A stretch of 64,000 nucleotides of DNA from Blastopirellula retiformator (GCF_007859755.1 NZ_SJPF01000002.1:205729-269728), one strand, 5' to 3'; shown: positions 14,393-44,517, numbered from the stretch's first letter. The notes: generated by a model from the sequence alone, not told the origin. Program-made: numbers and translations.

Positions 14393-17300
14393 ATGACGAT
14401 TTCGACTGATCGAACCGATATCCCGGTAGCGATTGTCGGCATGGCGTGCCGTCTGCCTGGCGCCGCCAATTTGAATGAATATTGGCAACTGATCTCGGAA
14501 GGTCGGTCCGCCGTCGGCGAAGTCCCCGCGGATCGCCTGAATCGTGAGATCTACTACAATCCTGAAAAAGGCGTTCGAGGCAAGACGTACTCCACCAAGG
14601 CGGCGACGCTGGCTGATCGCACGTTCAATCGTGAACGTTGTCCCCTGCCGCAAGACCTGATTGATTCGGTCGACAACACTCACTTGTTGATGACCGAAAC
14701 CGCCGCCGAAGCGTTTCGTCACGCGGGCTACGATCCGTTCAACTTGAAGGATCGAAATTGTTCGGTCTTCATTGGTCACGCTCAGGGAAGTTCGCGACTA
14801 GGCGAACTGACGTTTCAGGCCTATCTCGACGAAGCGGTCGCCCTGCTGGAAGCGACGCCCGAGTTCCAGGACTTGCCCCCGGCGCAGCGGCAAGAAGTCG
14901 AGCAGCAGTTGCTGCAAGAGTTGACCGCGTCGATACCGGACGGCGGCCAAAGCATCCGCAATCTCAATTGCAACATGGTTTCCGGAACGGTCGCACGAGC
15001 GTTCGGACTGACCGGCTCGTGGTTGGCGCTTAACTCGGCTTGCGCTTCGTCGCTACACGCGATGTTGATGGGCGCCCGAGCGCTGCAGCGTGGTCGGGCC
15101 GACATGGTGGTGGTCGGCGGCGCTTCGGACTGCAAGTCGGACTCACTGGTCCTGTTCTCCGCCGCGCAAACCTTGACCAAGAATGACAGCTGCCCGTTCG
15201 ATGCGAATGCGGACGGTCTGATCATGTCGGAAGGTTACGTCGCGCTGGTGATGAAGACGCTGGATCGCGCGATCGCCGATGGAGATAACATTCAAGCGGT
15301 CGTCCGCGGTATGGGGGTAGCGACCGACGGCAAAGGGAAGAGCCTGTGGGCGCCCCGTAAAGAAGGACAAATGCGGGCGATGCGCCGCGCCTATCGCAGC
15401 GGCGTCGACGTCTCGCGACTGCAATATCTTGAATGCCATGCGACCGCGACCCAACTGGGCGACGCGACTGAAATGGAAACGCTCCGCGAGGTCTTAGAGC
15501 CGAAGTTCCCCGTTGGGAAGAAGATTCCGATCACCAGCGCCAAGGCCAACATCGGCCATGCGCTAGAAGCGGCCGGCATCGCGGGGATGATCAAGACGAT
15601 TCTCTGCATGCAGCATCAGCAGTTCCCTCGGGCGATCAACATTAAGCAGTTGAATACGAAGGTGCCGTGGGATGAGTCTCCGTTCTTCGTGCCGATGCAA
15701 CCGGCGGCCTGGCCGGCCCAGACCGATGGCGGTCCGCGCACCGCGGCGGTCAATGCGTTTGGCATCGGCGGCTTGAACATGCACGTGGTGATCGACGAGT
15801 ACGTCGGTCAAACCGCCGAACAGATCACCGGCGGACCGCGCCCGGTGGCCGAATCGGCCGACGATCGCGCCGTAGCGATTATCGGCATGGGCTGCATCGC
15901 GCCTGGCGCCAGCGAAATCAATCAGTTCTGGGACGTGCTGCAGAAAGGGACCGACCCGAAGGGCGAACCGTCGGAAGAACGCTGGTCGAGTTTGGCCCGC
16001 CAGAAAGCGGAAGCCAAAGGCATCAAGGTCCTGGGCGGTTTCATCAACGACTACGCCTATGACTGGCGGAAGCACAAGGTGCCGCCCAAGCAGGTCAATG
16101 AAGCCGATCCGCTGCAGTTCATGTTCCTCGACGCCAGCGAACAAGCTTTGGCCGACGCCGGCTACGATCGCACCTCGATCGAACGTGAGCTTTGCGGCGT
16201 TGTGATCGGCACCGAATTCGGCGGCGACTTTGGCGACCAGTTGGAAATGGGCCTTCGTCTCCCCGAAATGCAGCACAAGCTGACTGGGATGCTCACCAAG
16301 CGAGGTCTGTCGGCCGAGAAGATCGAAGCGATCAACAAGAACTTCGCGGACGTGCTGCTGAAGAAATGGCCGGCCCTGGTCGACGAAACCGGAAGCTTTA
16401 CCAGCAGCACGCTCGCCTCGCGAATCAGCAAGACGCTTGATCTGAACGGCGGCGCCGTCGCGATCGACAGCGGGACGACCTCCGGCATGTCGGGTATCGC
16501 GCTCTGCATCGATTCGCTGCTCTCGGGCGACAACGACATGATGATCTGCGTCGCCGGTCAACGCCGGATGGGGCAGACGATGTATCAAGGTCTGGCCGAG
16601 TCAGGCCACCTGCATCGCGAAGGGGCGCCGAAGAACGTCCTCGACGCTGGCTATAACGGCATCGTGCCGAGCGAAGGCGCCGCGGTGGTCGTGCTGAAGC
16701 GTCTGGCCGATGCCCGCCGCGATGGTGATCGCGTTCGCGCTGTGATTCGCGGTCTAGGCGCCGCCACGCATGATTCGCCAGCCGAAGCGATGCGATTGGC
16801 GGTTCAGCGTGCCGCCGAAATGGCCAGCATCGCACCGAGTGAAATTCAATTTGTTGACGTCGAAACGGATGAGAACCATGCGAGCGTCACACAGGCCCTA
16901 GCGACCCTCGCGCACGAACACGCCTCGCCAGAACGGGAAGAGCCGCTCCAGTTGAGCTCGGCCACCGCGCAGTTTGGCAGCATGGGAGGCGGCAGCTCGT
17001 TGATCGCTGTGCTGAAGGCGGCGCTCGAAGCCCAAAATCATGAAGTCGCCGCCGCGCGACAACTGCACCAACCGACCGCCGCGTTCAACGGTTCGTCGTC
17101 GAGCGTGCAAACCGCCTCGCTGAACGTCAAGTTGACCGGTCGCGGACTGGGTGGCGTCGCCAACTGGTCGAAGGGACAAGCCTTCTTCCTGATTCTGGAC
17201 GATGGCGTTCCCGCTCCGCCGAAGCCGAAGAAGCAGGCGCCGGCCGTCGCCAAACCGACTCCGGCCGCGAAGATCGTTCGCTTTGGCGCCGCTTCGCTAG

Positions 17301-20300
17301 CGGAGCTGCAGACGCAAGTCGCCGCCGCCGAGCCGGTCCAACTGTATCAAGCGGCGGAATCAATCAAGTTTTCGCCGACCGATAAAATTCGCCTGGCGAT
17401 TGTGGCTGACAGCGCCGAAGCGCTGGCCAAAAAGCTGGCGATGGCGTCGCCGCAGCTGGGCAATTCCGCGTCGCGTCAAGTCTTGGAACAACAGGGGATC
17501 TTCTGCCGCGAACCGCTCGCGACCAAGCCGCGCATCGCGTTCCTGTTCCCTGGACAAGGTTCGCAATACGAGGGAATGTTGCGCGATCTGGTCGCTCAGT
17601 CGTCGGCCGCCGCCAAGATGATGGCCGACGCCGACGCCGCGATGCGACGCCTGGGCTATCCGACCTTTGCCGAACTGGCCTGGAACAGGCCGACGCAACT
17701 GGGCGCCGACGTCTGGAAGACGCAGATCGCCATGTTGCTGGCCGATCTGATCTGCCTGGCGGCGCTTAGCGATCGCGGACTGAAGCCGGACGTGGTACTT
17801 GGTCACAGCTATGGCGAGTTCCCGGCGCTATATGCCGCCGGCGTTTGGAATCTGGACGCCGTGATTCGCATGACCCGCGCTCGTTGCGATGGCGTGAACG
17901 CCACCTCACTGAACAACGCTGGTCTGTTGGCGACCACCGCCCCGCCGGAAGAAATCAAGTCGATCATTACCGCCAGTGGCGTTCAGGCCTACCTGGCCAA
18001 CTACAACGCGCCCGACCAAACGGTCATCGGCGCCAAGTTGACGGCGCTGGAGCAACTGGCGAAGGAACTCTCGGCCAAGTCGTACCCGGCCCGCATCTTG
18101 GCGGTTCCGGCGGCGTTCCACACGCCGCTGATGGCTGGTTCGAGCCGGATGTTGCAGCAGGCGCTCGAAACGGCCGAACTGAAGGCGCCGCAAACGCCGT
18201 TCATCAGTACCGTCGACAACAGCTTGATCGACGATCCGGCGCGGATCCGTCGCAATCTGGGAGTGCAGCTGACCACGCCGGTCAAATACGCGCCGCTGAT
18301 CGAACAACTTGCGCTCGAAACGCCGACGATTTTCGTCGAGGTCGGGCCGCAGCAAACGCTTACCAAGCTAAATCGCCGGATCCTCTCTGGCGATGCGACA
18401 GTGATCGCTTCCGACAACCCCAAGCGCGGCGGTATTGAGCCGATCTTGAACGTCGAAGCGTTGCTGGAATGCCTGGGAGTTGGCGCCGAAGTCGCAAGCG
18501 TGCCGCAGCCGGCCGCTATCGCTATCGCCGCCGTCTCCCGTACGATGTCTTCTTCGACCGACCGCGCGCCCGCTAAGCCGCAGCCTGTCGCTTCGTCCCG
18601 TAGTCCGATTAGCACCAACGAGAAGAACCTGATGGACGATATTCCGCACTTTGACGCTACCGAGCGTCGACGCGCGAAGATGCGAGGTTCTGCCCAGGCT
18701 CCCGCGCCTGCAGCAGCGCCGCCGGCTCCGGCTCCGCCGGCCGCCGCGTCTCCCGCGCCCGCCCCGGTCGCAGCGCCAACTGTTCCGAGACCGACGTTTG
18801 CGGCGGCGCCCGCGGTTGCTCCCGCGCCTCCGGTGGCGCCGGCGCCGCAACCTGCTCCCCCTGCGCCTGTGGCGGCGGTCAACAAAAGCGACGGGGTCGA
18901 CCTGGAGAAATTCCTGGTCAACTTCGTGGTCGAACAGACCGGCTATCCGCCGGAAGTGGTCGATCTGGACGCCGACATGGAAGCCGACTTGGGCATCGAT
19001 AGCATCAAGAAGGCGCAATTGTTCGGCGAACTGCAGGAGTACTTCGAGATCAGCACGTCGGCGACCGACTTGTCGCTGGACGACTTCCCGACCCTGCGTC
19101 ACGTCATGAACTTCCTGAACGCCAGCGGACAAGGCGCCTCGTCGGCTCCGGCCGCCGCACCGACGCCGGCTGCTGCTCCGGTCGCTCCCGCGCCGGCCGC
19201 GGTTGCTCCGCCGGCTCCGGTCGCTGCGCCGCAACCGGCTGCTCCCGCGCAGCCTGCCGCCGCCGCTTCCAGTAGCGCCAGCACGGCCGAACTCGAGAAG
19301 TTCCTGGTCAACTTCGTGGTTGAGCAAACCGGTTATCCGCCGGAAGTGGTCGATCTGGACGCCGACATGGAAGCCGACTTGGGCATCGACAGCATCAAGA
19401 AGGCGCAATTGTTCGGCGAACTGCAGGAGTACTTCGAGATCAGCACGTCGGCGACCGACCTGTCGCTGGACGACTTCCCGACCTTGCGTCACGTCCTGAA
19501 CTTCCTCTCGGCCAATGGCCAGGCTAGCGAAAGCCAACCGGTCGCCGCTGTTCCGGCTCCGGTGACTCCGCCAGCTCCGGTGATGCCAGCTCCGGTGACA
19601 GAAGCGCCCGCGACTGGCGGCGCCAGCACCGAGGAACTCGAAAAGTTCCTGATCAACTTCGTGGTCGAGCAAACCGGTTATCCGCCGGAAGTGGTCGATC
19701 TGGACGCCGACATGGAAGCTGACTTGGGCATCGATAGCATCAAGAAGGCGCAGCTGTTCGGCGAACTGCAGGAGTACTTCGAGATCAGCACGTCGGCGAC
19801 CGACCTGTCGTTGGACGACTTCCCGACTCTGCGTCACGTTTTGAACTTCCTCTCGGGCAACGCTTCGGCGACCACCGAGGAACCAGCATCTTTTTCCCTG
19901 GCCGCTCCGGCGCCGGCTCTGGAAACTAAAGAAGATGCGCCGGCCGCGGTGAGCGTTGCGACTAGCGCTCCTGCGGAACTCTCTGGTAAGACTTTGGACT
20001 CTGGCGCCGCGGCGCCGCTCGTGCTCGACGGTACGCCGTACGAGATGGGGCGGCGTCATGGTAGCCAATATCGGGACGAGATTCGTCGCGTACTCCGCAC
20101 CTATGCGGAGTACGTCGGCGAGTCGATTGACGAGCTTCCCGGCTCGGCCCAATCGACCGACGCGCTCCAAACGCTTTCGCCCGATCAATGGGACGAATTG
20201 GCGGGGATTGCCGACGCGATTGAAGCTCCCCTGAGCAATGTGTTGGCCCATCACTTCGCCGTGGCCGAAACGCTGTCGGCGATGGAGCAAGCGGCCGCCA

Positions 20301-23300
20301 ATAACGGCTCGCTGGTCCATGCCGCGCAGATTGACTCGCCAGCGATCAATCCGATGCGGGAGACGATTCGCCTAACCGCTTTCCTCCGCAAGCCGACTTC
20401 CGGCCTCTCGTGCGTCGTTGTGGCGCCGATCGGCACGGCGTTGATTTTGGGGGGCGTCAATGCGGCCGGCGTCACCTTTGGTGGTGAAAACGCTTCGGCA
20501 GCCGTGGTGCAAAAGAGCGCAAGCCTGGAAGCGGCGATCGATCTGTCGCTCAGCGAACAGGGCAGCGTGGTCTTGGGCGAACTATCTACCGGTCGACTCT
20601 CCAGCATTCAGGCTGGCGGCGACGACCGACAAATCATTAGCGATCAAGCGTCGGTGCACTGCGGCAATCGTCAGCTGGCGTTGGCCGGTGGCGCGTCCGC
20701 GGATCAAGGCGAGTTTTCCGCCAGCGACGTGACCAACCTGCTGCTATCGGCTGAAGGAGACTTGTTGGCGTTCCTGTTCGACTTTGGCGGCGGACAGCTA
20801 TCGCTGAAGAGCGCGCCCCTTTCGCGGGCCATCGACAGTTACTCGTTGGGCGGTCTGTTCGACGGCAGCGAGGTTTCGTCGCCGGCGACGCCGACTTGCG
20901 GCGAAGCGACTCCCCTCGCTCCGGCGAACGTGACGGCTCGCTTTGAACTGGAAATGTGCGAATCGCCCCTTCCGTCGACCGCGCCCAATCAGCCGGTCTT
21001 TGAAGGAGCGGCAATTGTTCTCGGAAGCGGCGAGACTGCCGCCGCTTTGATTGAACAGTTGCAACAGCAAGGCGTCACGGCGTATCAAATCGCCGACGCC
21101 GCTGATCTAGAGAACGCCGTCGCGCAGGTCGAAGCGATCTGTGCGGCTGGCCCCGCGCCTCACTTGTTCATGACGACTGCTCGCGATGAGCGGAAGCATC
21201 TGCAACTGGGCGCCCCGGCGACCTGGGAAGCGGTCCAGACGACTGCAATGGAAACGCCCCTGTTCGTCGCCCAAAAATGGCTGTCGATCGCCGACAAGGC
21301 GGGCTGGCTGGAGAAAACGACCGTCGTGGCGGTAACCGCTCTGGGAGGCGACTTCGGCTTTGGTCGCGGCGCGACGGCTGTCGAAGGTGGCGCCTTGACT
21401 GGTCTGATGAAGGCGGTGTTTATCGAATACACCGTCATGCGGGGCGGAAAAGGTCCCCGCGCCAAGGCGTTCGATACCTGCCTGCAAGACGCCCCACGTC
21501 AAATCGCCAGCGACATCATGACCGAACTGGCTTCGGGCAACCAAGATTACGAGGTCTCCTACTCCGGCGGCGTGCGTCGCGTTCCTTTCGCGATGGATCG
21601 ACCGGGCGAAGACTGCCCGTCGGCGGAACTGCCGCAAGGCGTGTGGGTCGTTACCGGCGGCGCTCGCGGCATCACGGCGGCCTGTGCTTTGGAACTTGGC
21701 AAACGGTATGGCTTGAAGCTGCACCTGATTGGCTCCAGCGAACTGCCGGCGATTGATCCCGCTTGGCGAGAGCTCGACGAGGCGGGCCTCAACAAGCTGA
21801 AGGCCGACACGATGATCGCGGCACGCCAAGCGGGGCAACAGGCTCCGCAGGCTTGGCAGCGCGTTCAGAAGAGTCTAGAGATCGACAAGTCGCTGCATGC
21901 GTTCGTCGACAACGGCGTCTCGGCCACCTATCACGCTTGCGACGTTTCGAGCCGCGACGCGGTCGCCCAAGTGCTGGACGAAATTCGCCGCGTCGATGGT
22001 CCGATCTCCGGCATCCTGCATGGCGCCGGTATCGACAAGTCGTGCCGCATGGAAAAGAAACGCCGCGACGTGGTGCAGGCGACGCTCGGCATCAAGGATG
22101 GCGGTATTGTGCATCTCGCTTCGCTCACGCAAAGCGATCCGATTCGCCACTTCATCGGTTTCGGTTCGATCGCCGGTCGTCTGGGCAGTTTTGGCCAGGC
22201 CGACTATTGCATGGCGAGCGATCTCCTCTGCAAGCTGATGGGCGCCTATCGTCGTCAACGACCGTGGGTTCGCAGCGTCGGCTTCCATTGGCATGGTTGG
22301 GACGAAGTCGGCATGGCCGCTCGCCCCGAAACGAAGAGCGTGCTCAACGACAAGAGCGCCCTGAAGTTGATGCCGTTGGCGGAAGGGATCGGCCATCTGA
22401 TTCGCGAAATCGAAGCCGATGTGCCGCGTCACGAGATCCTGATCACCGAACGTCGTCACTGGCAACGCTTCGCCGACGGGTTGGGCATTTTGGCCGAGAG
22501 TCGCGCCGAAGCGCCGACCGCCGCGCCCGAGAAGCCGGCGGAAACCGCTTCGAGCGAACCGCTCGCGCCGGCCGACGCCTCGGTTGAACTCCGTACCGAA
22601 CGTTGCGAACTGAAACTGATCGACGCTCCGCTGGGCGCCGCAACTCCGGCGTCGCCGACCTTTGCCGGTCCGACCTGGATCTTAGGCGAAAACGCCGATG
22701 CGGTTGAATTGGAACAACGGCTGACCCAAGCCGGCGTCGAAGTTTATCGCTTTAGCGCTCGCGCCGATTTGGACGAGACGTTGGCCTGGCTCGATTCGCT
22801 ACATCCCGAAAAGCCGGCGCAGCGACTCTTCCTGATGACGGGGCGTGACGCTGCTGGTAGCGATCCGCTGTCGGCGGCCGAAATCGATCGTCGTCGTCAC
22901 GAAGGGATCATCTTCCCCTACTTCATCGCGCAAAATTGGTACAAGCGAAACCTGAAGTTCCCAGAAGCGGGTACCGGCGACTTGGTCGCGGCGGTTTCGC
23001 TTGGCGGCGACTTCGGCTTTGAGTCGACTGTGCAGATGCCAGACGGAGGCGGCGTCGCCGGCTTCGTTAAGTCGCTGCACATCGAGGACTCGCGGCTCGA
23101 AACCCGTGGAGCTCGTTGCAAGGTCATCGATACTCCGGCATCGCAATCGCCGGCCGCACTGTTTGACGCGATGATGCGTGAGCTGGCCGGGGATGGGCCG
23201 GAAGTCGAAGTCAGCTGGAACGAAGGCGTGCGTCGAGTGGTACGCCCGATCGGCACGACGATGGAAATGGGACCCGACGCCAACATTCCGCGTGGCGGGG

Positions 23301-25051: not shown

Positions 25052-25749
25052 TGAATGCCCTTGCGCGGCTGGTGCGCTATGTCGCCGATGCGGGCCAACT
25101 CCCCATTTCCTATTCCGCCGCGTGGTTGAGCGAGGCGGAACGCGCTGAACTTGATTTCTTCACGCATGCGGACCGCCGTCGCCAGTGGTTGAGCGGTCGG
25201 TGGATCGCCAAGCGATTGGTCACCCGTTCGAGCGATGCTGGCCAGCTGAGACGCGTCGAGATCTTGTCGCGTTCGGCGGATGGCCTTGGCAAATCGCCAA
25301 AGGTCTTGGTGGATGGACAAATGGCCTCGATCCGCATCTCGCTGTCGCATGCCGGCGGCGCGGTACTGGTCGGGATGACGACCGATGCGACGTCGATTGG
25401 CGTCGATTTGGCTTGGGACGTTCCGCAAGATAGGCAGTTCTCGGCCGCTTGGTTTACCGAGCGGGAACAAGCCTGGCTTGCCGAACGCCCCGAGTCGGCG
25501 TCGCTGTTGTGGGGACTGAAAGAGGCGATTTTCAAGTCGCAGGGAAGCGGTCAGGCCTGGAACCCCCGTGGCGTTGAAATCGAATCGTATTGCGACCATC
25601 AAGTCCGCTGCACGCTGTTCGGCCGCCAGCTCGCTCCACTCGCGGTGTGGGCGCGCCATTCGCACCGAGGCGCCGCCACCGCCGTCTGGCAATCCGCCGC
25701 TGGTGACACTCCCGCCTATCCCCAGCAGGAGCTTTCATCATGTTTGTGA
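25048..25749 (+). CDS. Sfp-type 4'-phosphopantetheinyl transferase
   Basis: 233 residues. The signature motifs are IGVDLAWD (the Mg/CoA-binding V-G-[VI]-D pattern) and WGLKEAIFKSQG (W-x2-K-E-A-x3-K). The enzyme moves the phosphopantetheine arm of CoA to ACP serines, here most simply the three ACPs of the preceding gene. ATG 25048 overlaps the megasynthase stop (ATGA), and its 3' end overlaps the Rieske gene by 10 bp, so it is translationally embedded in the cluster. Cluster-borne transferases are usual for PUFA-type synthases. Confidence 0.93.
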   Translation: MMNALARLVRYVADAGQLPISYSAAWLSEAERAELDFFTHADRRRQWLSGRWIAKRLVTRSSDAGQLRRVEILSRSADGLGKSPKVLVDGQMASIRISLSHAGGAVLVGMTTDATSIGVDLAWDVPQDRQFSAAWFTEREQAWLAERPESASLLWGLKEAIFKSQGSGQAWNPRGVEIESYCDHQVRCTLFGRQLAPLAVWARHSHRGAATAVWQSAAGDTPAYPQQELSSCL

Positions 25750-26903
25750 GCAAGGAACATCATCCGCAGGTTCTGCCGCGGCAGGCCTATTTCGATCAAA
25801 CCATCTTCGACAATGAGATGGAAACCATCATGATGCCCGCGTGGCATGCCGTCGCCCTGATGCACGAACTGCCGAAAGACGGTTCGTTCCTGACGATGGA
25901 CATCTTCGATCGCCCAATCATCTTGTGGCGGAAGGGAGATGAGGTTTGCGGCTTTTTGAACGTCTGTTCGCACCGCTACGCCAAGCTGACCTGCAAGGGG
26001 TGCGGGGTCGCTGAGCGATTGCACTGCCAGTATCACGGCTGGGAGTTTGATGAAACCGGCAATGTCCGCAAGATTCCAGATGCGAAGACATTCAAGCCCC
26101 TGCAAAAAGGGATGCTTGGCCTTAAAAAATTCCGCGTGGAGCGCTGCGGGGAGTTGGTCTTTTTGAATCTGACCGACGAAGGCCCGAGCCTGCGAGAGTT
26201 TCTGGGCGATAAGTTCGAGATGTACGAGAGTTGGTTTACGCCGGAGATGCATACGGCGATCGTCATGACCCGCACAATCGACGCCAACTGGAAGTGCCTG
26301 GTCGAGAACGCGCTAGAGAGCTACCACACCACGACGGTGCATCCGCAGACGTTCGGCCAGTTTCCGGATGAAAAAGATATCCAGCACACGATGCAAGAAC
26401 ATTGGACGTCGATGTTCGTTGATTACAGTGAAGAACGATCGGTGCGGGCGACGCTCGACATGATTGGTCACCTCGCGGTTGGCCGTCCGCGGGACGGATC
26501 GTACGAACATATCCTGCACTACCCCAACGTGATGATGGCGCGACTGTCGCTCTATCGATGGGTCGAGTGCGTAATCCCGGTTTCGCCCGGTCGATCATTG
26601 TCGGTGGTTCGCCTGATGTGCCATATCGGCCAGAAGGGGCAACTGCGACGGTTATGGAACCGGTTTTTCGTGACCAAATGGGCGCGAGACTTTTTGACCA
26701 AGGTCGGCTCGGAAGATGCCCGGGTGTTGGTGCAGATTCAGAAAGGGATTGCCGCTCCTGATGAACCGATGGGCGGATTGATCTCGACGCGTGAAGAACG
26801 CATTTTCCATTTTCAGAAATACGTCGAGAAAGCGAGCGGATTGGCTGGCTTTTGCGACGAAAGCGATGTACTTCCAATTCGATTTTCAGGAAACGCAACA
26901 TGA
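25740..26903 (+). CDS. Rieske non-heme iron oxygenase, alpha subunit type
   Basis: 387 residues. The N-terminal Rieske [2Fe-2S] site is CSHRY with CQYHGW (C-x-H and C-x2-H). The C-terminal catalytic domain has the mononuclear iron motif ENALESYHTTTVHP. The family hydroxylates, desaturates or demethylates, with electrons from a separate reductase that is not encoded here. Start at ATG 25740 with AGGAG about 10 nt upstream. It overlaps the transferase gene upstream and the reductase gene downstream (ATGA), so it is almost certainly a tailoring step on the lipid product. Aromatic substrates are typical of the family, but a lipid or amine substrate is equally possible here. Confidence 0.9.
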   Translation: MFVSKEHHPQVLPRQAYFDQTIFDNEMETIMMPAWHAVALMHELPKDGSFLTMDIFDRPIILWRKGDEVCGFLNVCSHRYAKLTCKGCGVAERLHCQYHGWEFDETGNVRKIPDAKTFKPLQKGMLGLKKFRVERCGELVFLNLTDEGPSLREFLGDKFEMYESWFTPEMHTAIVMTRTIDANWKCLVENALESYHTTTVHPQTFGQFPDEKDIQHTMQEHWTSMFVDYSEERSVRATLDMIGHLAVGRPRDGSYEHILHYPNVMMARLSLYRWVECVIPVSPGRSLSVVRLMCHIGQKGQLRRLWNRFFVTKWARDFLTKVGSEDARVLVQIQKGIAAPDEPMGGLISTREERIFHFQKYVEKASGLAGFCDESDVLPIRFSGNAT

Positions 26904-27664
26904 TTAACCTCTCCGGACGTATCGCTTTGGTTACCGGAAGTTCGCGCGGCATGGGGCGAGCTTGCGCATTGCGACTGGCCGAAGCAGGCTCCGACGTGAT
27001 CGTGAACTACGTCACGTCGCGCACCGCCGCGATGGAAACGGCCAAAGAGATTCGGGCGATGGGGCGCCGCTCCTTCGTCGTCAAAGCCGACGTCAGCCAA
27101 AAAGACGACGTCGAATCGATGATGGAATATATCAGCGAACACATCCAGCAGCTTGACATCATCGTCAGCAACGCGGCGACCGGCGGCTTTCGTCCGTTGA
27201 TGGCCGCTAACGAAAAGCACTTTGAAAACACCTACCACACCAACGTGTTGGCGTTGCTCTACCTGGTGCAAGCTGCTTTGCCCCTGCTGGTCAAGAGCCA
27301 AGGCCGCGCCAAGGTGATCGGCATCAGCAGCCATGGCTCGGACATGGCTTTGCCGTGGTATGGTTTGATCGGTAGCTCGAAGGCGGCCCTGGAAAGCCTG
27401 GCTCGTCACCTGACGCTGGAAGTCGGCGACAAGGGCGTTAACGTCAACGTCGTCAAGTCGGGCCTTGTCGAAACTGACTCGACCAAGCGACTGCCGGGCG
27501 CCGGCGAGATGTTCGATCATCGCAAAGACAAGACGATGATGGGCGATCGGATGCTGTCGGTCGAAGACATCGCGGATGCGGTCCTGTTTTTGGCCTCGCC
27601 GCTGTCGGATCTCGTGCAAGGCGAAACGCTGGTCGTCGATGGCGGCGCCGCGGTTCACGTTTAG
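26900..27664 (+). CDS. SDR oxidoreductase, FabL-like enoyl/3-oxoacyl-ACP reductase
   Basis: 254 residues, Rossmann fold with LVTGSSRGMGRACALRLAEAG for NAD(P) binding, SNAATGGFRPLM, and a Tyr-x6-Lys catalytic pair (WYGLIGSSKAALESL). The Y-x6-K spacing and the RPLM(A)..EKHFENT region match FabL/FabI-type enoyl-ACP reductases rather than FabG (Y-x3-K). Since the megasynthase has no enoyl reductase domain, this gene may supply that step in trans. Its ATG overlaps the Rieske stop. The end VVDGGAAVHV is SDR-typical. Substrate specificity is inferred. Confidence 0.82.
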   Translation: MINLSGRIALVTGSSRGMGRACALRLAEAGSDVIVNYVTSRTAAMETAKEIRAMGRRSFVVKADVSQKDDVESMMEYISEHIQQLDIIVSNAATGGFRPLMAANEKHFENTYHTNVLALLYLVQAALPLLVKSQGRAKVIGISSHGSDMALPWYGLIGSSKAALESLARHLTLEVGDKGVNVNVVKSGLVETDSTKRLPGAGEMFDHRKDKTMMGDRMLSVEDIADAVLFLASPLSDLVQGETLVVDGGAAVHV

Positions 27665-27700
27665 TCGATTGCTTGGAGACTTAGGGCTAGTTTTCTTAAC

Positions 27701-29200
27701 ATGAAGTATCACCTGTTAACTGGCGCCACGGGCTTGCTCGGCCGCTATTTGATTCGCGATTTGACCCTGGCGGATATTCCGCTGGCGGTCGTAGTGCGCG
27801 GCTCGCGCTTTGAGTCGGCCGCCCAGCGAATTGAAACGGCCATGGCCTATTGGGAGACGGAACTGGGACGCGCACTCGTCCGCCCCGTCGTCCTGGAAGG
27901 CGACATTGCCAAACCCGGCCTAGGCATGTCGCAAGCTGATCAGGCCTGGGTGGCGCAAAACTGCGAAGCGGTCGTGCACTCGGCGGCGTCGCTTACCTTT
28001 TACGCCGACGAAGAAGATGGCGAACCGTGGCGGAGCAACATCCAGGGGACGCGCAACGTCCTGGGACTGTGCCGCGATGCCGGGATTCGCCAACTGCATC
28101 ACGTTTCGACCGCCTACGTCTGCGGCCGTCGCCGCGATGTGATTCGTGAAGAAGAAGTCGACGTCGGTCAAGAGCCGAGCAACGACTACGAATCGAGCAA
28201 GTTGACGGCCGAGAAAGAAGTTCGCGCCGCTGATTTCCTCGACGTGCTCACGATGCATCGTCCTTCGATCATCGTCGGCGACGCCGAAACCGGATTCACC
28301 GTCTCGTACCACGGGTTCTATACGCCGCTGCGACTGGTTCACGCCTTGGTGACCTCGCTGCCGTGGGACCTGTTCGTGCAGTGCGACCTGCTGGGCGCGC
28401 TTAAACTGGATGGCTCGGAACGGAAGAACCTGGTTCCGGTCGATTGGGTTTCGGCGGCAATGACCGAAGTCATTCGGAAACCGGAATTGCACGGTCAAAC
28501 CTACCACTTTACCAACCCGAATCCGGCGACGGTGGCCGATATGCTGGGGTCGCTCGCTTCGATGGTGATGGCTTTGGCCAAGCCGGGTAAAGAGGCGTCC
28601 GAAGCGGCGAAGAACATTTCGATCGACGACGTCGCCGCGAATTTTCGCGAACAGATGTGGGTCTACCAGTCGTATTGGAGCGATGACCCGTCGTTCGATT
28701 CGACCCATACCGAGCAGGCGCTTCCTTACCTGCCCTGCCCTCCGGTCGACGACGCGATGATGGATCGCCTGGTCGCGTTCGCCTTAGAGAAGAACTTCGG
28801 CTGGCCCCGCGAGGCTTCGGCAAAAATTAAATATCCGGTCGCCCAAGATTTGGAACCTTGGCTCGACAGCGCCAAGCGGCTAGAAGGCGACTCCGCGGAT
28901 CGACGGTACGTTAGTCTGCAGATCTGCGGCAGCGGCGGCGGCCAGTGGCACATGATCGTTGATCATGGTCGCGTGGTTGGCGTTGGGGCCGGTCTGCAAG
29001 ACGGCGACAGCCCGACCTGCTATTTGAACAGCGATACTTTTACGCGACTGACGCGTGGAGAACTCTCCTGGGAATCGGCTTTGCAGTCAGGTCGTCTCGT
29101 GACGACAGGAAATGCGGCAAGTTCCGATCAGCTCGCTCGTTGTTTTCACGATCTTGCCTCTTTGACCTGCTCCGACACCACTAACAACTGCGCCAACTGA
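27701..29200 (+). CDS. Thioester-reductase-like SDR with C-terminal SCP2-like domain
   Basis: 499 residues. The first ~300 are an extended SDR of the NAD_binding_4/male-sterility type (LTGATGLLGRYLIRDL, HSAASLTFYADE, HVSTAYVCGRRRD, DYESSKLTAEKEVR as Tyr-x3-Lys, then MHRPSIIVGDAETG). This fold ends many PKS/NRPS lines by reducing an acyl thioester to aldehyde or alcohol. The last ~110 residues (GGGQWHMIVDHG, DSPTCYLNSDTFTRLTRGELSWESAL) look like an SCP2 lipid-binding domain. With no thioesterase in the megasynthase, this is the best candidate for reductive chain release. The SCP2 tail could hold the lipid. Both roles are inferred. Confidence 0.8.
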   Translation: MKYHLLTGATGLLGRYLIRDLTLADIPLAVVVRGSRFESAAQRIETAMAYWETELGRALVRPVVLEGDIAKPGLGMSQADQAWVAQNCEAVVHSAASLTFYADEEDGEPWRSNIQGTRNVLGLCRDAGIRQLHHVSTAYVCGRRRDVIREEEVDVGQEPSNDYESSKLTAEKEVRAADFLDVLTMHRPSIIVGDAETGFTVSYHGFYTPLRLVHALVTSLPWDLFVQCDLLGALKLDGSERKNLVPVDWVSAAMTEVIRKPELHGQTYHFTNPNPATVADMLGSLASMVMALAKPGKEASEAAKNISIDDVAANFREQMWVYQSYWSDDPSFDSTHTEQALPYLPCPPVDDAMMDRLVAFALEKNFGWPREASAKIKYPVAQDLEPWLDSAKRLEGDSADRRYVSLQICGSGGGQWHMIVDHGRVVGVGAGLQDGDSPTCYLNSDTFTRLTRGELSWESALQSGRLVTTGNAASSDQLARCFHDLASLTCSDTTNNCAN

Positions 29201-29213
29201 AAGACACACAGCA

Positions 29214-30584
29214 ATGAACGGGGGTAACGCCATGACGGGAATGATTTCCAAAACGGATTCGAGCGGAGCGGCGATAAGTGCGAAAACGCTGGAACGCGGC
29301 CGAAAAAGCATCGCCGGCGGCGATAGCAGCACGATGCGGGTTCTGCCGTATCACATTCCGCTGGTCGCCGACCGCGGCGAAGGCTGCCGCCTTTGGGACG
29401 TCGACGGCAACGAATACATCGACTTGAACATGGCGTACGGGCCGCTGCTGTTGGGCCATCGTCCCAAGCAAGTCATCGAAGCGGTGTATCGTCAGATCTC
29501 GGAACAAGGGAGCCAGCTTGGCTTTCCGACCGAAGTGACGATTCGCGTCGCCGAGAAGCTGAAGATGCTGTTCCCCAGCATTGAACTTCTCCGATTCGCC
29601 AACTCGGGCACCGAAGCGTGCGCCTCGGCGATTCGCCTGGCTCGCACCTACACCGGTCGCCGCAAGCTGATCATGTTTGAAGGTCACTACCACGGCTGGA
29701 GCGAAGCGGTCTTCACCAAGTACCACGCTCCGCTCGACATGCTGCCGGAATGTGGGTACGGCCCGGCCATCCCGGGCACCAGCGGCATGACCGACGCCCT
29801 GGACGACGTGATCACGGTTCAGTGGAACGATCTCGACGCCCTGGAACGTTGCTTGGGAGAGCATGGCGCCGACGCCGCGGCGGTCATCATGGAGCCGATC
29901 TCGGGTAACGCCGGTTTGATCATGCCCCGTGAAGGCTACTTGCAGTCGGTTCGCGAGATGATCCATGACCGCGGCGGTTTGTTGATTTTTGACGAAGTGA
30001 TCACCGGTATGCGAGTTTCGCCGGGCGGCGCCCAAGAGCACTACATGGTCTCGCCCGACATCTCGGTCGTCTCGAAGGCGATGGGTGGCGGTTACCCGGT
30101 TGGTTCGTTCGGCGCCTCGGCCGAAATCATGAGCTGCATCACCGATGGCCCGCTGTTCCACGGCGGCGTGTTCTCGGGCAATGCGATCGTGATGTCGGCG
30201 GCGGAAGCGGTTCTCGATACGGTCCTGGCCGACAAAGAGAACATCTACGCTCACCTGCACGCCGTTGCCGATCAATTGGCCGGCGGCATCAGAGAGATCT
30301 ACACGCGGCTCAACATTCCGGCCCACGTCAATCACCTTGGCCCGTTGCTGGCCGGTCTGATTACGAAGGAAGAGGTCGAAGGGCTGTACAACTATCGCGA
30401 CGTTCGCCGTCACTGCGACTTCGAGCGTTACATTCAGTTCCAGCACCACATGCAGCGTGCCGGCGTTTACTTTCATCCGAATGAATTTGAACCGATGTTC
30501 CTGTCCACCGCGCACACGTCGGCCGACATCGACGAAGTGCTGGAAAAATGGGAAGATGGAGCCCGCCAGTGTCTGGTCCGGTAA
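29214..30584 (+). CDS. Class III aminotransferase (glutamate-1-semialdehyde aminomutase-like)
   Basis: 456 residues. PLP fold type I: WDVDGNEYIDLNMAYGPLLLGH, FANSGTEACASAIRLAR, FEGHYHGWSEAV, LLIFDEVITGMRVSPGG, and the PLP lysine Lys288 in VVSKAMGGGYPVG. This subgroup includes GSA aminomutase and aminotransferases of natural-product clusters. In this setting it could aminate the aldehyde made by the preceding reductase, or a keto group on the chain, giving a fatty amine. A heme-pathway role is unlikely given the neighbours. Start ATG 29214; ATG 29232, preceded by a GGGGGT, is an alternative. The 3' end overlaps the next gene by 16 bp. Confidence 0.88.
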   Translation: MNGGNAMTGMISKTDSSGAAISAKTLERGRKSIAGGDSSTMRVLPYHIPLVADRGEGCRLWDVDGNEYIDLNMAYGPLLLGHRPKQVIEAVYRQISEQGSQLGFPTEVTIRVAEKLKMLFPSIELLRFANSGTEACASAIRLARTYTGRRKLIMFEGHYHGWSEAVFTKYHAPLDMLPECGYGPAIPGTSGMTDALDDVITVQWNDLDALERCLGEHGADAAAVIMEPISGNAGLIMPREGYLQSVREMIHDRGGLLIFDEVITGMRVSPGGAQEHYMVSPDISVVSKAMGGGYPVGSFGASAEIMSCITDGPLFHGGVFSGNAIVMSAAEAVLDTVLADKENIYAHLHAVADQLAGGIREIYTRLNIPAHVNHLGPLLAGLITKEEVEGLYNYRDVRRHCDFERYIQFQHHMQRAGVYFHPNEFEPMFLSTAHTSADIDEVLEKWEDGARQCLVR

Positions 30585-32050
30585 TTTCCGATTCGATTTG
30601 GAGCGCCTCGCCCATCCTGGATGCTGTCGAGAACTATCGCGGCAGCATCGTTGACCTGGATGCGGGGCGCGTCATTTCGGCGGAGGAGTTCGCCCGCGCT
30701 CGAGAAGCGATCATGCGCACGTTTCGCCAGCAGGGCTTAGCTGCTGGCGATCGCGTTTTGGTAACGATCGGAAATGGCCCGCTGTTTCCGGCGGTGCTGG
30801 CGGCGCTGCTCACGTGCGAAGCCTCGCCGCTGCTAGTGCATGTCATGACGCCGTCAGCCGAACTGGCCCGCTACTCAAAGCGGTTTGGCGTGAAATGGCT
30901 GGTTGGTTTTGGCGGCGATACGCAAGTCGCGTCGGTCTTGAAGTCGGCGGCGCAGCTCGAGCCGCTCGCCGGTTGGAATTTGCTGTGGGGCGCCTTTCCC
31001 GAGCCAAGCGTCGTCCCCGGCCCCGAACTGAAAGGCGTGCCGCTTCATCCGACTTCCGGTTCGACCGGTTTGCCGAAGATCGCGCTACGGCCTGGCTTTG
31101 CGGCGATGGAAGAAGCGCGGCACTACGCAGAGACGATGGCGATTTGCGAAGACGACTGTCTGTTCGCCATTCCGCCGATGAGCCACGCTTACGGCTATGG
31201 CCTGACGGTGATGACGCCGCTTCTCTCGGGCGCCAGCGTCGTGACGACCGCCAACTTCAGCATCAAGAAGTTGGGAGAAGTCTTGCGCGACTATCCGGTG
31301 ACGGTCTTGCCGATGGTACCGGCGCATATCGACATGCTTCTGTTTGGCGGTGCGATCGACTTTGGTCGGCTCCGTTGGCTATTGACGGCGGGCTCGATGA
31401 TGCCGCGTCGTTCGGCGGTGCAGTTCCGCAAGAAGACGGGCGTCACCGTTTGTCCTCTCTACGGCACAACCGAAACTGGCGGCATTTCCGTCGCCACGAC
31501 CGCCGATGGCGAAGATGTCGATGGCCGCGTCGGTCCGCCGATGAACGGAGTGAAGGTCTGCGTGCGACCTCCGGCAGATGCCGAAGCGCAAGGTCTGGAA
31601 TCGGGCGTCGGCAAAGTCCACATCCAAAACAGCTCGATGATGGCCGGCTACCTGGATGACCAAGGCGCCATATTGCATCCGTGGGATGCCGACGGATGGT
31701 TCGAAACCGGCGACCTGGGCAAAATCGCATCGGACGGCGTGATTCATCTGCGCGGTCGAACCGGCGAGATGATCAATGTCCTGGGGTTGAAGGTCGTGCC
31801 GTGCGAGGTTGAAGAAACGATCGCCGCAATGCCGGGCGTTCGTGAGGTAAAAGTATACGGAAGTCGCCTGGCGTCGCAGGCCGAGATCGTCAAAGCGGCG
31901 ATCGCCGTCGACCCCGGAGTTGATGAACTGTCGATTCGGGCTTACTGCGAAGAGCATCTGGTCTACTACAAGCGTCCGCAGGCGATCGCCCTGGTCGACG
32001 CGTTGCCTCGTTCGCCGGCCGGCAAGATCGTTCGCGATCAACTTCCTTAG
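30569..32050 (+). CDS. Acyl/aryl-adenylating AMP-dependent ligase
   Basis: 493 residues from GTG 30569, with GGAG 7 nt upstream and inside the end of the aminotransferase gene. ANL-superfamily motifs: TSGSTGLPK (A3), YGTTETGG (A5), GWFETGDLG (A7), and PRSPAGKIVRDQL with the A10 lysine. It activates a carboxylate as acyl-AMP and passes it to CoA or an ACP thiol. In this cluster it could load a starter unit or activate the acyl group used by the downstream condensation-type enzyme. The sequence alone does not give the acid; there is no obvious FAAL-specific insertion. Confidence 0.88.
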   Translation: MSGPVISDSIWSASPILDAVENYRGSIVDLDAGRVISAEEFARAREAIMRTFRQQGLAAGDRVLVTIGNGPLFPAVLAALLTCEASPLLVHVMTPSAELARYSKRFGVKWLVGFGGDTQVASVLKSAAQLEPLAGWNLLWGAFPEPSVVPGPELKGVPLHPTSGSTGLPKIALRPGFAAMEEARHYAETMAICEDDCLFAIPPMSHAYGYGLTVMTPLLSGASVVTTANFSIKKLGEVLRDYPVTVLPMVPAHIDMLLFGGAIDFGRLRWLLTAGSMMPRRSAVQFRKKTGVTVCPLYGTTETGGISVATTADGEDVDGRVGPPMNGVKVCVRPPADAEAQGLESGVGKVHIQNSSMMAGYLDDQGAILHPWDADGWFETGDLGKIASDGVIHLRGRTGEMINVLGLKVVPCEVEETIAAMPGVREVKVYGSRLASQAEIVKAAIAVDPGVDELSIRAYCEEHLVYYKRPQAIALVDALPRSPAGKIVRDQLP

Positions 32051-32080
32051 TCCTTCCGCCCTGCTGTAGGGAGATCGCCG

Positions 32081-33472
32081 ATGTCGCAAGTCGCAGACGT
32101 TCCCAAATCGGACTACGCCGCCGCGATAAGCAAGGTCTTTCCTCTGCCGCTGTCGCCGGTAGAGAAGTTCATGTTCGCCGATACGCGTCCGCAGTATCCG
32201 ATGATTTGCGACGCCGAGGCCCGCTTTCAAGGCACGGTAGAACGTGGCCCGTTTGAGGAAGGGCTGAACTTTGCGCTAGAGCGAGCGCCGATGTTTCGCA
32301 GCGTCATCGAGAACGACAAGAAGCGGGGCCTAGTTTGGCAACTGTGCGATCGTCGGCCCGAAGTCGATTGGGGCGAATATGGCGAGCCGTACATCGACGG
32401 TTACGATCAGGTGATCGATCTGACCAAAGATGTCGGCCTGCGCGTTTTTGTCCGTAGCGGCAGTGACCGATCGACGGTGATGTTTCACTTTCATCATGCC
32501 TGTGCCGATGGTGTGGGAAGCTTTGCTTTCATTGAAGACTTCTTGACGGGGTACAACAACGCGACTCCCGGAGCCAAGCCGGCGACGCCGCGCAAGTTGG
32601 AGCCCGAGCGTCTGCTGGATCGCTGCAACTCGGCGCTGGAGAATCCGAGCGTCTGGAAGGGACTTTGCGACGTCGGCAGCGGCATCGCTTCGGCGTTTCG
32701 CTTCTTCGCCGATCGGCCGTTGCCGCTCACCAGCGGTCTGCCGCTAGCGGAGCCAGGCGCCGAGCGCAAGCAACGCGGTCCGGTTTCGGTTGCGCTCTCC
32801 AACGAAACGACCGTGGCGCTACGACGATTTTCGACCGAAACGAAGGTGACGCTCAACGACTTGCTCCTGCGCGACTTGTTCTTAGCGCTCAATGAGCAGA
32901 TCGAAACGCAAGGATTTCCGATCAAACGTCGTCAATTGCGGGTACTCATGCCGCAAAACCTACGTGGTCGCGGCGACAAGGCGATGCCGACGACCAACGA
33001 CATTGGTTTCGCGTTTTTGACGCGGCGCGGCGACTTCTGTCAGAAACCAGACGAGTTGCTGAAGTCGCTGGCTTGGGAGACGAACGCCATTCGCGGTGAT
33101 CGCTTGTCGCGGTATTTCATTGGCGGGCTAGCCGGTATCCAGGCGGTCGGCGCTCATCCGTGGATCGTCAATGGTCGTTTCTGTTTCGCGACGGCGGTGC
33201 TGACCAACTTGGGCAATTCATGGCGGCGATTCGCCACCAAGCTACCAGTGGCCAACGGCGGTCTGGTCGCGGGCAATCTGGTGTACGATTCGTTGATTGG
33301 CATGCCGCCGGTTCGACCCCGCACGGCCGCCGCCTTCAGCGTTACGACCACCGCCGAGCAGATAATTTTGTCGCTAAAACAGGACCAATTTCAATTTACC
33401 CGACAAGAATCGACTGACGCATTGAACTCCTTTGCAAGCAAGGTGGCTGAAACGGTCGAACTGGCTCGATAG
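32081..33472 (+). CDS. Condensation-domain-like acyltransferase (HHxxxDG)
   Basis: 463 residues with the hallmark FHHACADG motif (His138, His139, Asp143, Gly144) of the CAT/condensation-domain fold. That fold is shared by NRPS condensation domains, papA-type and wax-ester-type acyltransferases. The family joins an acyl thioester to an amine or hydroxyl. As the last gene of the run, 30 bp after the ligase, with GGGAG before its ATG, it is a good candidate to acylate the amino-lipid made by the preceding genes. It is free-standing with no carrier domain. Acceptor and donor are unknown. Confidence 0.8.
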   Translation: MSQVADVPKSDYAAAISKVFPLPLSPVEKFMFADTRPQYPMICDAEARFQGTVERGPFEEGLNFALERAPMFRSVIENDKKRGLVWQLCDRRPEVDWGEYGEPYIDGYDQVIDLTKDVGLRVFVRSGSDRSTVMFHFHHACADGVGSFAFIEDFLTGYNNATPGAKPATPRKLEPERLLDRCNSALENPSVWKGLCDVGSGIASAFRFFADRPLPLTSGLPLAEPGAERKQRGPVSVALSNETTVALRRFSTETKVTLNDLLLRDLFLALNEQIETQGFPIKRRQLRVLMPQNLRGRGDKAMPTTNDIGFAFLTRRGDFCQKPDELLKSLAWETNAIRGDRLSRYFIGGLAGIQAVGAHPWIVNGRFCFATAVLTNLGNSWRRFATKLPVANGGLVAGNLVYDSLIGMPPVRPRTAAAFSVTTTAEQIILSLKQDQFQFTRQESTDALNSFASKVAETVELAR

Positions 33473-33564: not shown

Positions 33565-36018
33565 ATGAATCTCAATTTGGCGTTGAAGGTCTTGTGTTGC
33601 GCGCTCTCCATCTGCGGCGCACAGGCGATCAGCGAGGCGAGTATCGAAGCTGCCGAACCTGCGGCGAAGATCGATTTTGCTCATCAGATCGTGCCGATTT
33701 TGCGCAAGCATTGCACCGCGTGCCACTCTGGCGCCAAGGCCGAGGGAGGTTTTTCGATCAACGATCGCAAGGCGTTTCTCGATAACGCCATGGCGATCCC
33801 TGGCGATGTCGAAGGCTCTTATTTCCTCGATCTGATCCAGTCGGACGATCCCGACATGCAAATGCCGCCCAAGGATCGCCCGCGTCTTTCCCCAGACGAA
33901 GTCGCCCTGCTCCAGCGCTGGGTAACGTCGGACATGCCTTGGGAACCGGGGTTTACCTTTGGGGATAAGTTCTACGAGCCGCCGCTATTGCCGCGTCGTC
34001 CCGAACTTCCTCCGGTTGTTGACGGTCGTGAGAATCCGATCGATCGGATCATCGACGCTTATCTCGCCGATCAGCAAATCGCCCGTCCAGGCCCGATCAC
34101 AGACGAGCAGTTTCTGCGGCGCGTCACGCTCGACCTGGTCGGCTTGCCTCCGACCGTTGACCAGCTGCAGGCCTTCCTGGCCGACGACTCGCCGCAAAAG
34201 CGAGAGGACGTGATCGACGCGCTGTTGGCTCGCGACATCGACTACGCTGATCATTGGCTCAGTTTTTGGAATGATCTGCTGCGGAATGACTACGACGGTA
34301 CCGGCTTTATCACCGGCGGCCGTTCGCAGATCACCACTTGGTTGTACGACGCCCTGCGGCAGAACAAACCGTACGATCAGCTGACCCGCGAGCTGATCGC
34401 TCCGCCGACGTCGGCCAGTCGCGGATTTATCGATGGCATCAAATGGCGGGGCGAAGTTAGCGCCGGGCAAACGACCGCGATTCAGTTTTCGCAAAACGTT
34501 TCGCAGTCGCTGTTGGGCATCAACATGAAGTGCGCCTCGTGCCACAACAGTTTTGTCGACAACTGGAAGCTTGCCGACGCGTATGGGTTGGCGGCCGTCT
34601 ACGCCGACAAACCGATCGAACTGCACCGCTGCGACAAGCCGACTGGCGAGATCGCCAAAGCGGCCTGGTTGTTTCCCGAACTGGGGACCATTGATCCCGA
34701 AGCGGCTCAGCCCGAACGCTTGAAGCAATTGGCGGCGCTGATGACGGCGCCAGAAAATGGGCGATTCTCCCGCACGATCGCCAATCGACTCTGGCAACGA
34801 CTGATGGGCCGCGGCGTGGTCCATCCGCTCGACTCGATGCAGTCGCGGCCTTGGAACGAAGACTTGCTCGACCAGCTGGCGGTTTCGCTGACCGATGAAG
34901 GCTATGACTTAAAGCAACTGATGCGTCTGATCGCCACCAGCCGAGCGTATCAATCGCAGACCGAAGTGCTGGCGGATGGCTCCAGCGATGGAGAATACGT
35001 CTATCGCGGTCCGCAGGCCAAACGGCTGACGGCGGAGCAATTTGTCGACTCGGTCTGGCGACTTTCCGGCGCTGCGCCTCGCATCGCCGACGCGAAGGTG
35101 GATCGAGTTAAGGGCGACGCCGGCAAGGCGACCGAAGTGAAGCTGATTGCGAACTGGATATGGAGCAGTTCTGCCGCCGGCGGCAAGTCGCCGCCAGCCG
35201 GCGAGACCATCGCTTTGGTCAAAACGATCGAGCTTGACGACCAGCCAACATCGGCGATCGCGGCGATCACCTGCGATAACGAGTTCCAGCTCTGGATCAA
35301 TCGCCAGGAAGTGGCGTCGAGCGGCGATTGGACCGAGGTGCAGTCGGTTGAGCTGAATCCCTATCTGAGAAAAGGGGCGAATGAGCTGGTGGTGATCGGC
35401 AAGAATGCCGGCAGCGGACCCAACCCGGCGGGACTCTACTTCCAGGCCAAGATCGATCTTCCCGGTGAGAAATCGACGACAATCGCCTCGGACGCGACAT
35501 GGACTTGGACCGCGGCGCCCAAGTCGAACGTTCTCAAGAAGCAGCCGCTCGCCGAATGGGCCGAAGCGGCCCAGCCGGTTGTTGTGGCGCCGGCGCTCGA
35601 CGCGTGGACGAGCGGCGTTGAGAATGGCGCCATGGCGGCGCTCGCGGGCGAAACCCCTATGGTGCGGGCCGCGCTGGTGAAGGGGGACTTCCTGATGCGA
35701 TCGCTTGGCAGACCGAATCGCGATCAGGTCGTTTCGACCCGGCCCAACGAGCTGACCACGCTCGAGGCGATCAGTCTGGCCAATGGGCCCGAGCTGGACA
35801 ACGCGCTCGCGCAGGCAGCGCAGCAACTCTTGAAACGCGACTGGGCGAACTCGGCCGAGCTGGTCGATCATGTCTACATGTCGCTTCTGTCTCGACACGC
35901 GTCGCAGCAGGAGCAAACGATTTTGGCCGAGGCGATCGGCGAGCAACCTGACCCGCAGAGCGTACAGGACATGCTTTGGACGGTGTTGATGCTTCCCGAA
36001 TTTATGATCATTCGTTAA
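33565..36018 (+). CDS. Planctomycete cytochrome c + DUF1549/DUF1553 (PSD1) secreted protein
   Basis: 817 residues. The signal peptide spans about residues 1-25. A first heme motif is CTACH (50-54) in the planctomycete cytochrome domain, followed by DUF1549 (RRVTLDLVGLPPTVDQLQAFL, YADHWLSFWNDLLRNDYDG), a second CASCH near residue 323, then DUF1553 (RTIANRLWQRLMGRGVVHP, LMRLIATSRAYQ). A stretch near residues 522-650 (NWIWSS, CDNEFQLWINRQEV, LRKGANELVVIGKN) reads like a jelly-roll carbohydrate-binding domain inserted in DUF1553. Such proteins are periplasmic and specific to the PVC group; their biochemical role is not established. It is followed after 16 bp by the usual DUF1501 partner. Confidence 0.9.
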   Translation: MNLNLALKVLCCALSICGAQAISEASIEAAEPAAKIDFAHQIVPILRKHCTACHSGAKAEGGFSINDRKAFLDNAMAIPGDVEGSYFLDLIQSDDPDMQMPPKDRPRLSPDEVALLQRWVTSDMPWEPGFTFGDKFYEPPLLPRRPELPPVVDGRENPIDRIIDAYLADQQIARPGPITDEQFLRRVTLDLVGLPPTVDQLQAFLADDSPQKREDVIDALLARDIDYADHWLSFWNDLLRNDYDGTGFITGGRSQITTWLYDALRQNKPYDQLTRELIAPPTSASRGFIDGIKWRGEVSAGQTTAIQFSQNVSQSLLGINMKCASCHNSFVDNWKLADAYGLAAVYADKPIELHRCDKPTGEIAKAAWLFPELGTIDPEAAQPERLKQLAALMTAPENGRFSRTIANRLWQRLMGRGVVHPLDSMQSRPWNEDLLDQLAVSLTDEGYDLKQLMRLIATSRAYQSQTEVLADGSSDGEYVYRGPQAKRLTAEQFVDSVWRLSGAAPRIADAKVDRVKGDAGKATEVKLIANWIWSSSAAGGKSPPAGETIALVKTIELDDQPTSAIAAITCDNEFQLWINRQEVASSGDWTEVQSVELNPYLRKGANELVVIGKNAGSGPNPAGLYFQAKIDLPGEKSTTIASDATWTWTAAPKSNVLKKQPLAEWAEAAQPVVVAPALDAWTSGVENGAMAALAGETPMVRAALVKGDFLMRSLGRPNRDQVVSTRPNELTTLEAISLANGPELDNALAQAAQQLLKRDWANSAELVDHVYMSLLSRHASQQEQTILAEAIGEQPDPQSVQDMLWTVLMLPEFMIIR

Positions 36019-36034
36019 CTGGCGAGCGAGAACC

Positions 36035-44212: not shown

Positions 44213-44382
44213 ACGTTTAATATAGAGAGGGGGCGAAATGGCGTCTCGCGGTTTTCGGACATGATGGTCGATTAATTCGTCGCTAGGGCGGATCCAGCGG
44301 CGGCCTGTCTTGCGCAACGCCCCAGTTTTTTGGCGTAGTCCGCGACCGATTTCAGGAAAAAACGGAGCCGACAAAAGAACTA

Positions 44383-44412: not shown

Positions 44413-44517
44413 GGCAGCCAATCGGAGACTTTATAAAATCTCTCCGGCGACATTTCCCACCTGACAACGACGCCTCGCTCGCCCCCGCCTGAGGCACATC
44501 CATCTGGAGACGACCTG

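Follow-up and report, generated by a model that had tools for sequence, protein, structure and literature searches.

Which product is made by a polyunsaturated fatty acid (PUFA) synthase-like megasynthase that is followed by a Rieske oxygenase, a thioester reductase, an aminotransferase, a ligase and an acyltransferase? This set of genes is found in Blastopirellula retiformator (GCF_007859755.1 NZ_SJPF01000002.1:205729-269728), in the 64,000-nt stretch of DNA analysed here, hereafter the window, in which positions are counted from the first letter. The genes between 10683 and 33472 are proposed to produce an N-acylated long-chain amino-lipid and to export it, a reading that is favored tentatively and at slightly less than even confidence. 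It draws on the complete synteny of ten genes in nine genomes of two genera; on a reductase that is of the FabL type and is the most conserved protein of the clusters; on a thioester reductase that has the fold of polyketide synthase (PKS) release reductases and is fused to the synthase in one relative; on an aminotransferase that, besides all nine of these genomes, is confined among 22 others to those with two ketoreductase (KR) domains in the synthase; on an exporter gene that adjoins the acyltransferase gene in two other clusters; and on the use of the same roles in zeamine and fabclavine biosynthesis (PMC3547906, PMC9113149). Nothing matching a PUFA synthase with a Rieske oxygenase, a PUFA synthase with a peptidase C45 domain, or this planctomycete cluster was found in open-licence papers, and the ten-gene block appears not to have been described previously.

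All eight genes that a first-pass annotation had placed between 14393 and 33472 were found there, on the plus strand. The first, the megasynthase, is open and stop-free from an ATG at 14393 to 25051 and encodes 3552 aa. It is followed by genes for a phosphopantetheinyl transferase (PPTase; 25048-25749; Pfam ACPS, E = 1.6e-10), the alpha subunit of a Rieske oxygenase (25740-26903; Pfam Rieske and Ring_hydroxyl_A), a FabL-type short-chain dehydrogenase/reductase (SDR; 26900-27664), a stand-alone thioester reductase (TR; 27701-29200; Pfam NAD_binding_4, E = 1.6e-41), a class III aminotransferase (AT3; 29214-30584; Pfam, E = 1.6e-59), an ANL-type acyl-CoA/acyl carrier protein (ACP) ligase (30548-32050; Pfam AMP-binding, E = 1e-36) and a stand-alone condensation-type acyltransferase (C; 32081-33472; Pfam Condensation, E = 6.2e-11; WS_DGAT, E = 7.7e-5). 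The tight packing originally described is borne out by the junctions, as computed from the ends of the open reading frames (ORFs) and the first in-frame ATGs on the plus strand: there are four overlaps, megasynthase/PPTase (4 bp, ATG at 25048), PPTase/Rieske (10 bp), Rieske/SDR (4 bp, ATG at 26900) and AT3/ANL (37 bp), and the remaining gaps within the operon, all under 40 bp, are ~36, 13 and 30 bp. The bounds of the cluster required correction, however, as its true start lies upstream, where two more genes precede the synthase. These encode a divergently oriented, 765-aa MMPL-family (RND-type) lipid exporter (10683-12980, minus strand; Pfam MMPL, E = 2.8e-25) and a metallo-beta-lactamase-fold hydrolase (MBL; 13127-13963, plus strand; Pfam Lactamase_B, E = 5.4e-18; PDB 3esh, E = 1.4e-44) that may be a thioesterase.

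Nine genomes have the full set, four from one genus (G000-G003) and five from a second (G045, G119, G127, G142 and G154), and every one has it in the order MMPL(-), MBL(+), megasynthase, PPTase, Rieske, SDR, TR, AT3, ANL, C, with MMPL in the identical place and orientation. Protein identity among these clusters ranges from 40 to 97%, and perfect synteny across such distances in two genera excludes a chance grouping. The chief objection foreseen in the first-pass annotation, that homologous clusters might lack the tailoring genes, is thereby answered, since these genes are conserved alongside the synthase in relatives. In the second genus the cluster is patchily held, as it was not found in G150 and as G198 has a different, single-KR synthase instead. 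Here and below, a gene is called absent if it was not found in flanks of 10-20 kb, except that AT3 and MBL were searched for genome-wide. The cluster marks a coherent planctomycete branch and opens a direct genetic route to the envelope lipids of a phylum whose cell envelopes are unusual.

The domain order predicted for the megasynthase was confirmed. A ketosynthase (KS; 14393-15817; Pfam, E = 4.2e-92) with its active-site Cys in NSACASS is followed by a second KS-like domain (15863-17120; Pfam ketoacyl-synt, E = 3.7e-42) that reads DSGTTSG, without the Cys, and is therefore assigned as a chain length factor (CLF). The acyltransferase (AT) domain (17531-18412; Pfam, E = 2.1e-29; TIGR00128, E = 5.9e-48) is of the malonyl type, with GHSYGE and AFH motifs. 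Three tandem ACPs with the motif LGIDSIKKAQL (18890-19855; three Pfam PP-binding stretches) lead into a C45-like domain (19961-20884), the catalytic domains of KR1 (21644-22333) and KR2 (23303-23992), both found by Pfam/NCBIfam, and a PKS-type dehydratase (DH) of the double hot-dog form with HRLRGKPLMP and DSALY motifs (24227-25018; Pfam PKS_DH_N and PS-DH, E = 2.6e-7). The nearest NCBIfam family is PfaA (TIGR02813), with a score of 910.1 bits against a curated cut-off of 1010.1; judged by its sequence, the synthase is related to PfaA but is not PfaA. In the broad sense it is a PUFA-type secondary lipid synthase, having KS, CLF, AT, tandem ACPs, KR and a Pfa-type DH.

The tailoring enzymes bear on how the chain might be reduced and released. 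The SDR matches FabL (PDB 3oic, E = 5.1e-58) far ahead of the next-best structure (4.5e-33) and has the catalytic spacing Y-x6-K (YGLIGSSK), but its NCBIfam FabL score of 266 bits is below the cut-off of 328, so it is termed FabL-type and not FabL itself. It is the best-conserved protein of the nine clusters (89-97% identity), and its gene adjoins almost every related synthase; together with the sequence likeness, this makes it likely to be a trans-acting enoyl reductase (ER), in keeping with the fully reduced chain proposed earlier. The TR has the fold of PKS thioester-reductase domains in Foldseek searches (8v1x, E = 1.2e-15; MxaA R domain, E = 2.4e-15) and the motif Y-x3-K (NDYESSK), and by motif and fold it is a putative thioester reductase. 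Reductive release is thus supported; the label "thioester-reductase-like" holds for the fold yet describes the protein incompletely, as its C terminus is probably an SCP2-like lipid-binding domain. In genome G014 (L030:520-9612) TR is fused to the N terminus of the synthase, with Rieske, SDR and C genes after it, indicating that TR acts on the product of the synthase. Isolate SZAS-1 (L062) has a comparable TR-synthase-SDR-Rieske cluster.

AT3 carries its pyridoxal phosphate-binding Lys in SKAMGGG and belongs to the HemL/PctV group; it is present in 9/9 full clusters and is 81-92% conserved across them. A housekeeping role as HemL was rejected, since AT3 scores 366 bits against the HemL family, below the cut-off of 527.3, and a separate gene in the genome scores 617 bits. 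The ANL protein gave FadD13 (E = 1.8e-31) in the PDB, where its best matches are to fatty-acyl, malonyl and coumarate ligases, all of them weak. The C protein reads HHACADG, and the HHxxxDG motif characteristic of Condensation/PapA-type enzymes is invariant in the alignment, as are the Rieske iron ligands (C-x-H, C-x2-H and H/H/D). The Rieske gene accompanies window-type clusters and several single-KR clusters, and tblastn found none in the flanks of other two-KR synthases. In L135 and L145, the C gene has a homolog of MMPL as its neighbor.

Few secondary lipids of PUFA-like synthases, only a handful, have known structures (PMC13291983). In the zeamine model, a TR forms an aldehyde for conversion by an aminotransferase, and attachment of the partner falls to a stand-alone condensation protein (PMC3547906, PMC9113149). 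The secondary-lipid half of the zeamine and fabclavine loci (zmn10-14 and zmn19; fclC-G and fclL) shares with the present cluster a PUFA-like synthase, a glutamate-1-semialdehyde (GSA)-type aminotransferase, an extra SDR, a TR, a PPTase and a condensation protein, so the analogy made in the first-pass annotation finds support in these common roles (PMC3547906). The present locus differs in its single fused synthase, in a FabL-type rather than PfaD-type ER, and in the additional ANL, Rieske, MBL, MMPL and C45-like components; neither a PfaD-type ER fused to an aminotransferase (AMT) domain nor a nonribosomal peptide synthetase (NRPS)/PKS partner was found among the genes annotated at 5900-42212. 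By this analogy the logic of the pathway is best read as zeamine-like without the peptide, with a reduced chain, reductive release, transamination and acylation in that presumed order. The PPTase would charge the three ACPs, and the iterative KS-CLF-AT-KR-DH synthase, with the SDR acting in trans, would assemble a long, mostly saturated acyl chain, with malonyl-CoA as the presumed substrate. TR, perhaps with the chain held in its SCP2-like tail, would release an aldehyde, which AT3 would convert to a primary amine, the chain end being the putative site of amination. The ANL ligase would activate a second acid as acyl donor, perhaps one that MBL releases from the synthase, and the HHxxxDG acyltransferase would join it to the amine. 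At some stage the Rieske oxygenase could hydroxylate or desaturate the chain, and MMPL would export the product. An exported amino-lipid is a testable prediction of the cluster.

The comparison with relatives separates the synthases by their KR content. In a KS tree of relatives of the window synthase, the two-KR synthases form one group of 16 rows with moderate support (UFBoot 90 / aLRT 88), and correlations among its traits rest on one or few evolutionary events; with an aLRT of 99, their KR2 domains likewise form a single clade. Across all 16 synthases the KR1 motif is Y-x3-S, in contrast to the Y-x3-N of KR2 and of the single KRs that could be read, and with Ser in place of the usual active-site Asn KR1 may be altered or weakened. 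Beyond the nine full clusters, 22 genomes were compared, seven with two-KR synthases and 15 with others; the 15 include two further proteins with two KR matches, G187 (L148), which the KS tree places outside the two-KR clade, and G226 (L149), a fragment without a complete KS. The MBL gene tracks the clade in 16/16 cases (9/9 full clusters and 7/7 further genomes) and was found in 0/15 of the others, and AT3-type genes are present in 9/9 full clusters and in four of the seven further two-KR genomes versus 0/15. Throughout the clade, a duplicated KR thus goes with a dedicated hydrolase and with loss of the C45 nucleophile (see below). G109 (L137, L159) has a two-KR cluster with a pair of TR genes, and a further MBL homolog lies on another contig of this genome; the pathway may be duplicated.

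Several observations weigh against the amino-lipid reading. The SCP2-like C terminus of TR gave weak matches only, and no reductase or ferredoxin partner for the Rieske oxygenase was identified among the genes examined. Of more consequence is the company of AT3. Its best PDB match is 4zm3 (E = 9e-101, 340 bits), which, with 4zm4, we take to be PctV, although the PDB entry is named merely "Aminotransferase"; HemL (294 bits) and the AMT domain of MycA (176 bits) score lower, and AT3 and PctV share GVYFHPN..EP.FLSTAHT. PctV makes 3-aminobenzoate from 3-dehydroshikimate, not a long-chain amine. The AT3, ANL and MBL genes are contiguous in G072, G095, G103, G118 and G195, and in G103 this compact module lies ~21 kb from the synthase, suggesting that AT3 serves the ligase and not TR. 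With the 37-bp AT3/ANL overlap in the window, these features would suit a pathway in which AT3 provides a small building block, either an amino acid or, in the manner of PctV, an aryl-amine, and ANL activates it to serve as lipid starter or headgroup, after which TR would yield an alcohol or aldehyde and C would form an ester or amide. This account is a serious contender though on balance unlikely: ANL and MBL occur without AT3 in G109, G176 and G210, ANL resembles, weakly, fatty-acyl, malonyl and coumarate ligases, and likeness to PctV, the closest relative of AT3 among solved structures, is no proof of a shared substrate.

The same three genomes bear on the proposal, made for zeamine, that amination takes place on the growing chain, with AT3 acting on the beta-ketoacyl-ACP in chosen cycles to give a beta-amino or polyamino chain and the extra KR serving the other cycles. 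KR duplication and AT3 do fall in one clade here, and the zeamine synthase likewise combines a recruited AMT, an extra KR and a TR (PMC13291983, PMC3547906), but AT3 is a separate protein nearer to PctV and HemL than to the MycA AMT, and G109, G176 and G210 retain two KRs without AT3, which leaves on-chain amination improbable. Least probable of the alternatives considered is an envelope lipid of the wax-ester or fatty-alcohol type, comparable to heterocyst glycolipids or the lipids of mycobacterial Pks/FadD/PapA/MmpL loci, in which synthase, TR and C would form the core and AT3 would be marginal. Many related clusters do consist of synthase, SDR and TR, some with C, and lack AT3; the MMPL, ligase and condensation-type acyltransferase also recall the mycobacterial set; set against these is the strong conservation of AT3 in every full cluster. 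The mycobacterial loci combine a megasynthase, an acyl ligase, an HHxxxDG acyltransferase and an MmpL exporter. Their logic is similar to that of the present cluster, but their synthase belongs to a different family and TR, aminotransferase and Rieske genes are extra here, and no homology of the loci is claimed.

The C45-like domain, ~310 aa between the third ACP and KR1, had no Pfam match in the window protein, yet it proved to be real. Corresponding domains of relative synthases were detected by Pfam AAT, profile-profile comparison by hhalign with stand-alone C45 proteins gave a probability of 99.8, and an AlphaFold2 model (pLDDT 76, pTM 0.78) returned isopenicillin N acyltransferase (2x1d, E = 1.8e-12), acid ceramidase (5.4e-10) and NAAA (2.5e-9) as best Foldseek matches. 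The domain shares with this peptidase C45/AAT family the Ntn-hydrolase fold and the motif GTPYEMG..HG, and differs in being embedded in a megasynthase and in lacking the N-terminal nucleophilic Cys, the window reading LSAMEQAA where relatives read GCVQFA or GCSQFA. As the Cys is lost in 16/16 synthases of the two-KR clade, the window included, the domain was rejected as an active release enzyme here. Of the 12 single-KR synthases with a scorable C45 domain, 11 keep the Cys (L178, L180, L183, L184, L146, L147, L135, L136, L144, L145 and L150); in other single-KR synthases the domain is degenerate or missing. A strict rule that two KRs entail loss of the Cys is weakened by L149 (two KRs, Cys present) and L182 (one KR, no Cys). 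Restriction of the domain to this cluster was also rejected, as it occurs in 45 of 396 genomes of the order and in stand-alone homologs. One free-standing 501-aa protein (L175:329-1831, minus strand) joins an apparent ACP-like segment to a C45 domain with the Cys intact (GCSQFA).

In the Cys-keeping synthases, the retained residue makes the embedded C45/AAT a possible candidate for an active acyl-transfer domain within a lipid megasynthase. A more ambitious interpretation has three parts, and that all hold together is unlikely: that planctomycetes have a large family of such PUFA-like synthases, as yet undescribed, with a built-in C45 acyltransferase; that in single-KR members the domain would act in line, releasing the chain by amide formation in the manner of penicillin acyltransferase; and that in two-KR members it would be a dead gating or scaffold domain, release having moved to TR and the AT3-ANL-MBL module. 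If true, exported N-acyl amino-lipids of this origin would constitute a new class. In the open-licence literature searched, a C45 domain is unreported for such synthases.

Among described architectures, the Type R secondary lipid synthases have the order KS-MAT-CLF-ACP-KR (Shulse and Allen 2011, PMC3098273). Like them, the present locus combines KS, CLF, AT, several ACPs and KR in one PfaA-like protein and has a PPTase gene directly downstream (25048-25749), but its order, KS-CLF-AT-ACP-C45-KR-KR-DH, is different and further tailoring enzymes are present. Types I and J are PUFA-like synthases from the same phylum (PMC3098273), with pfaBC fusions or a PfaD ER and another architecture.

PSCyt1/DUF1501 pairs are common planctomycete genes. 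Those downstream of the C gene (33565-37498) were rejected as cluster members because they trail the cluster in the genus of the window and not in G045, where neither was found in the 10 kb past the C gene, supporting a cluster border at that point. Scans for promoters and terminators gave counts at chance level. Genome G000 has two more KS-bearing megasynthase ORFs (C3:189114-191105 and C1:752075-753100; 2588 and 1321 aa). Elsewhere in the window, a gene at 42716-44503 (minus strand) fuses Ada-type zinc and AraC domains with an AlkA glycosylase, and two long opposing ORFs overlap at 44431-48732 (minus) and 44518-49497 (plus). Only the latter has Pfam domains (DUF7133, Laminin_G_3, HEAT and cytochrome c), and the 1433-aa minus-strand ORF is probably a shadow ORF.

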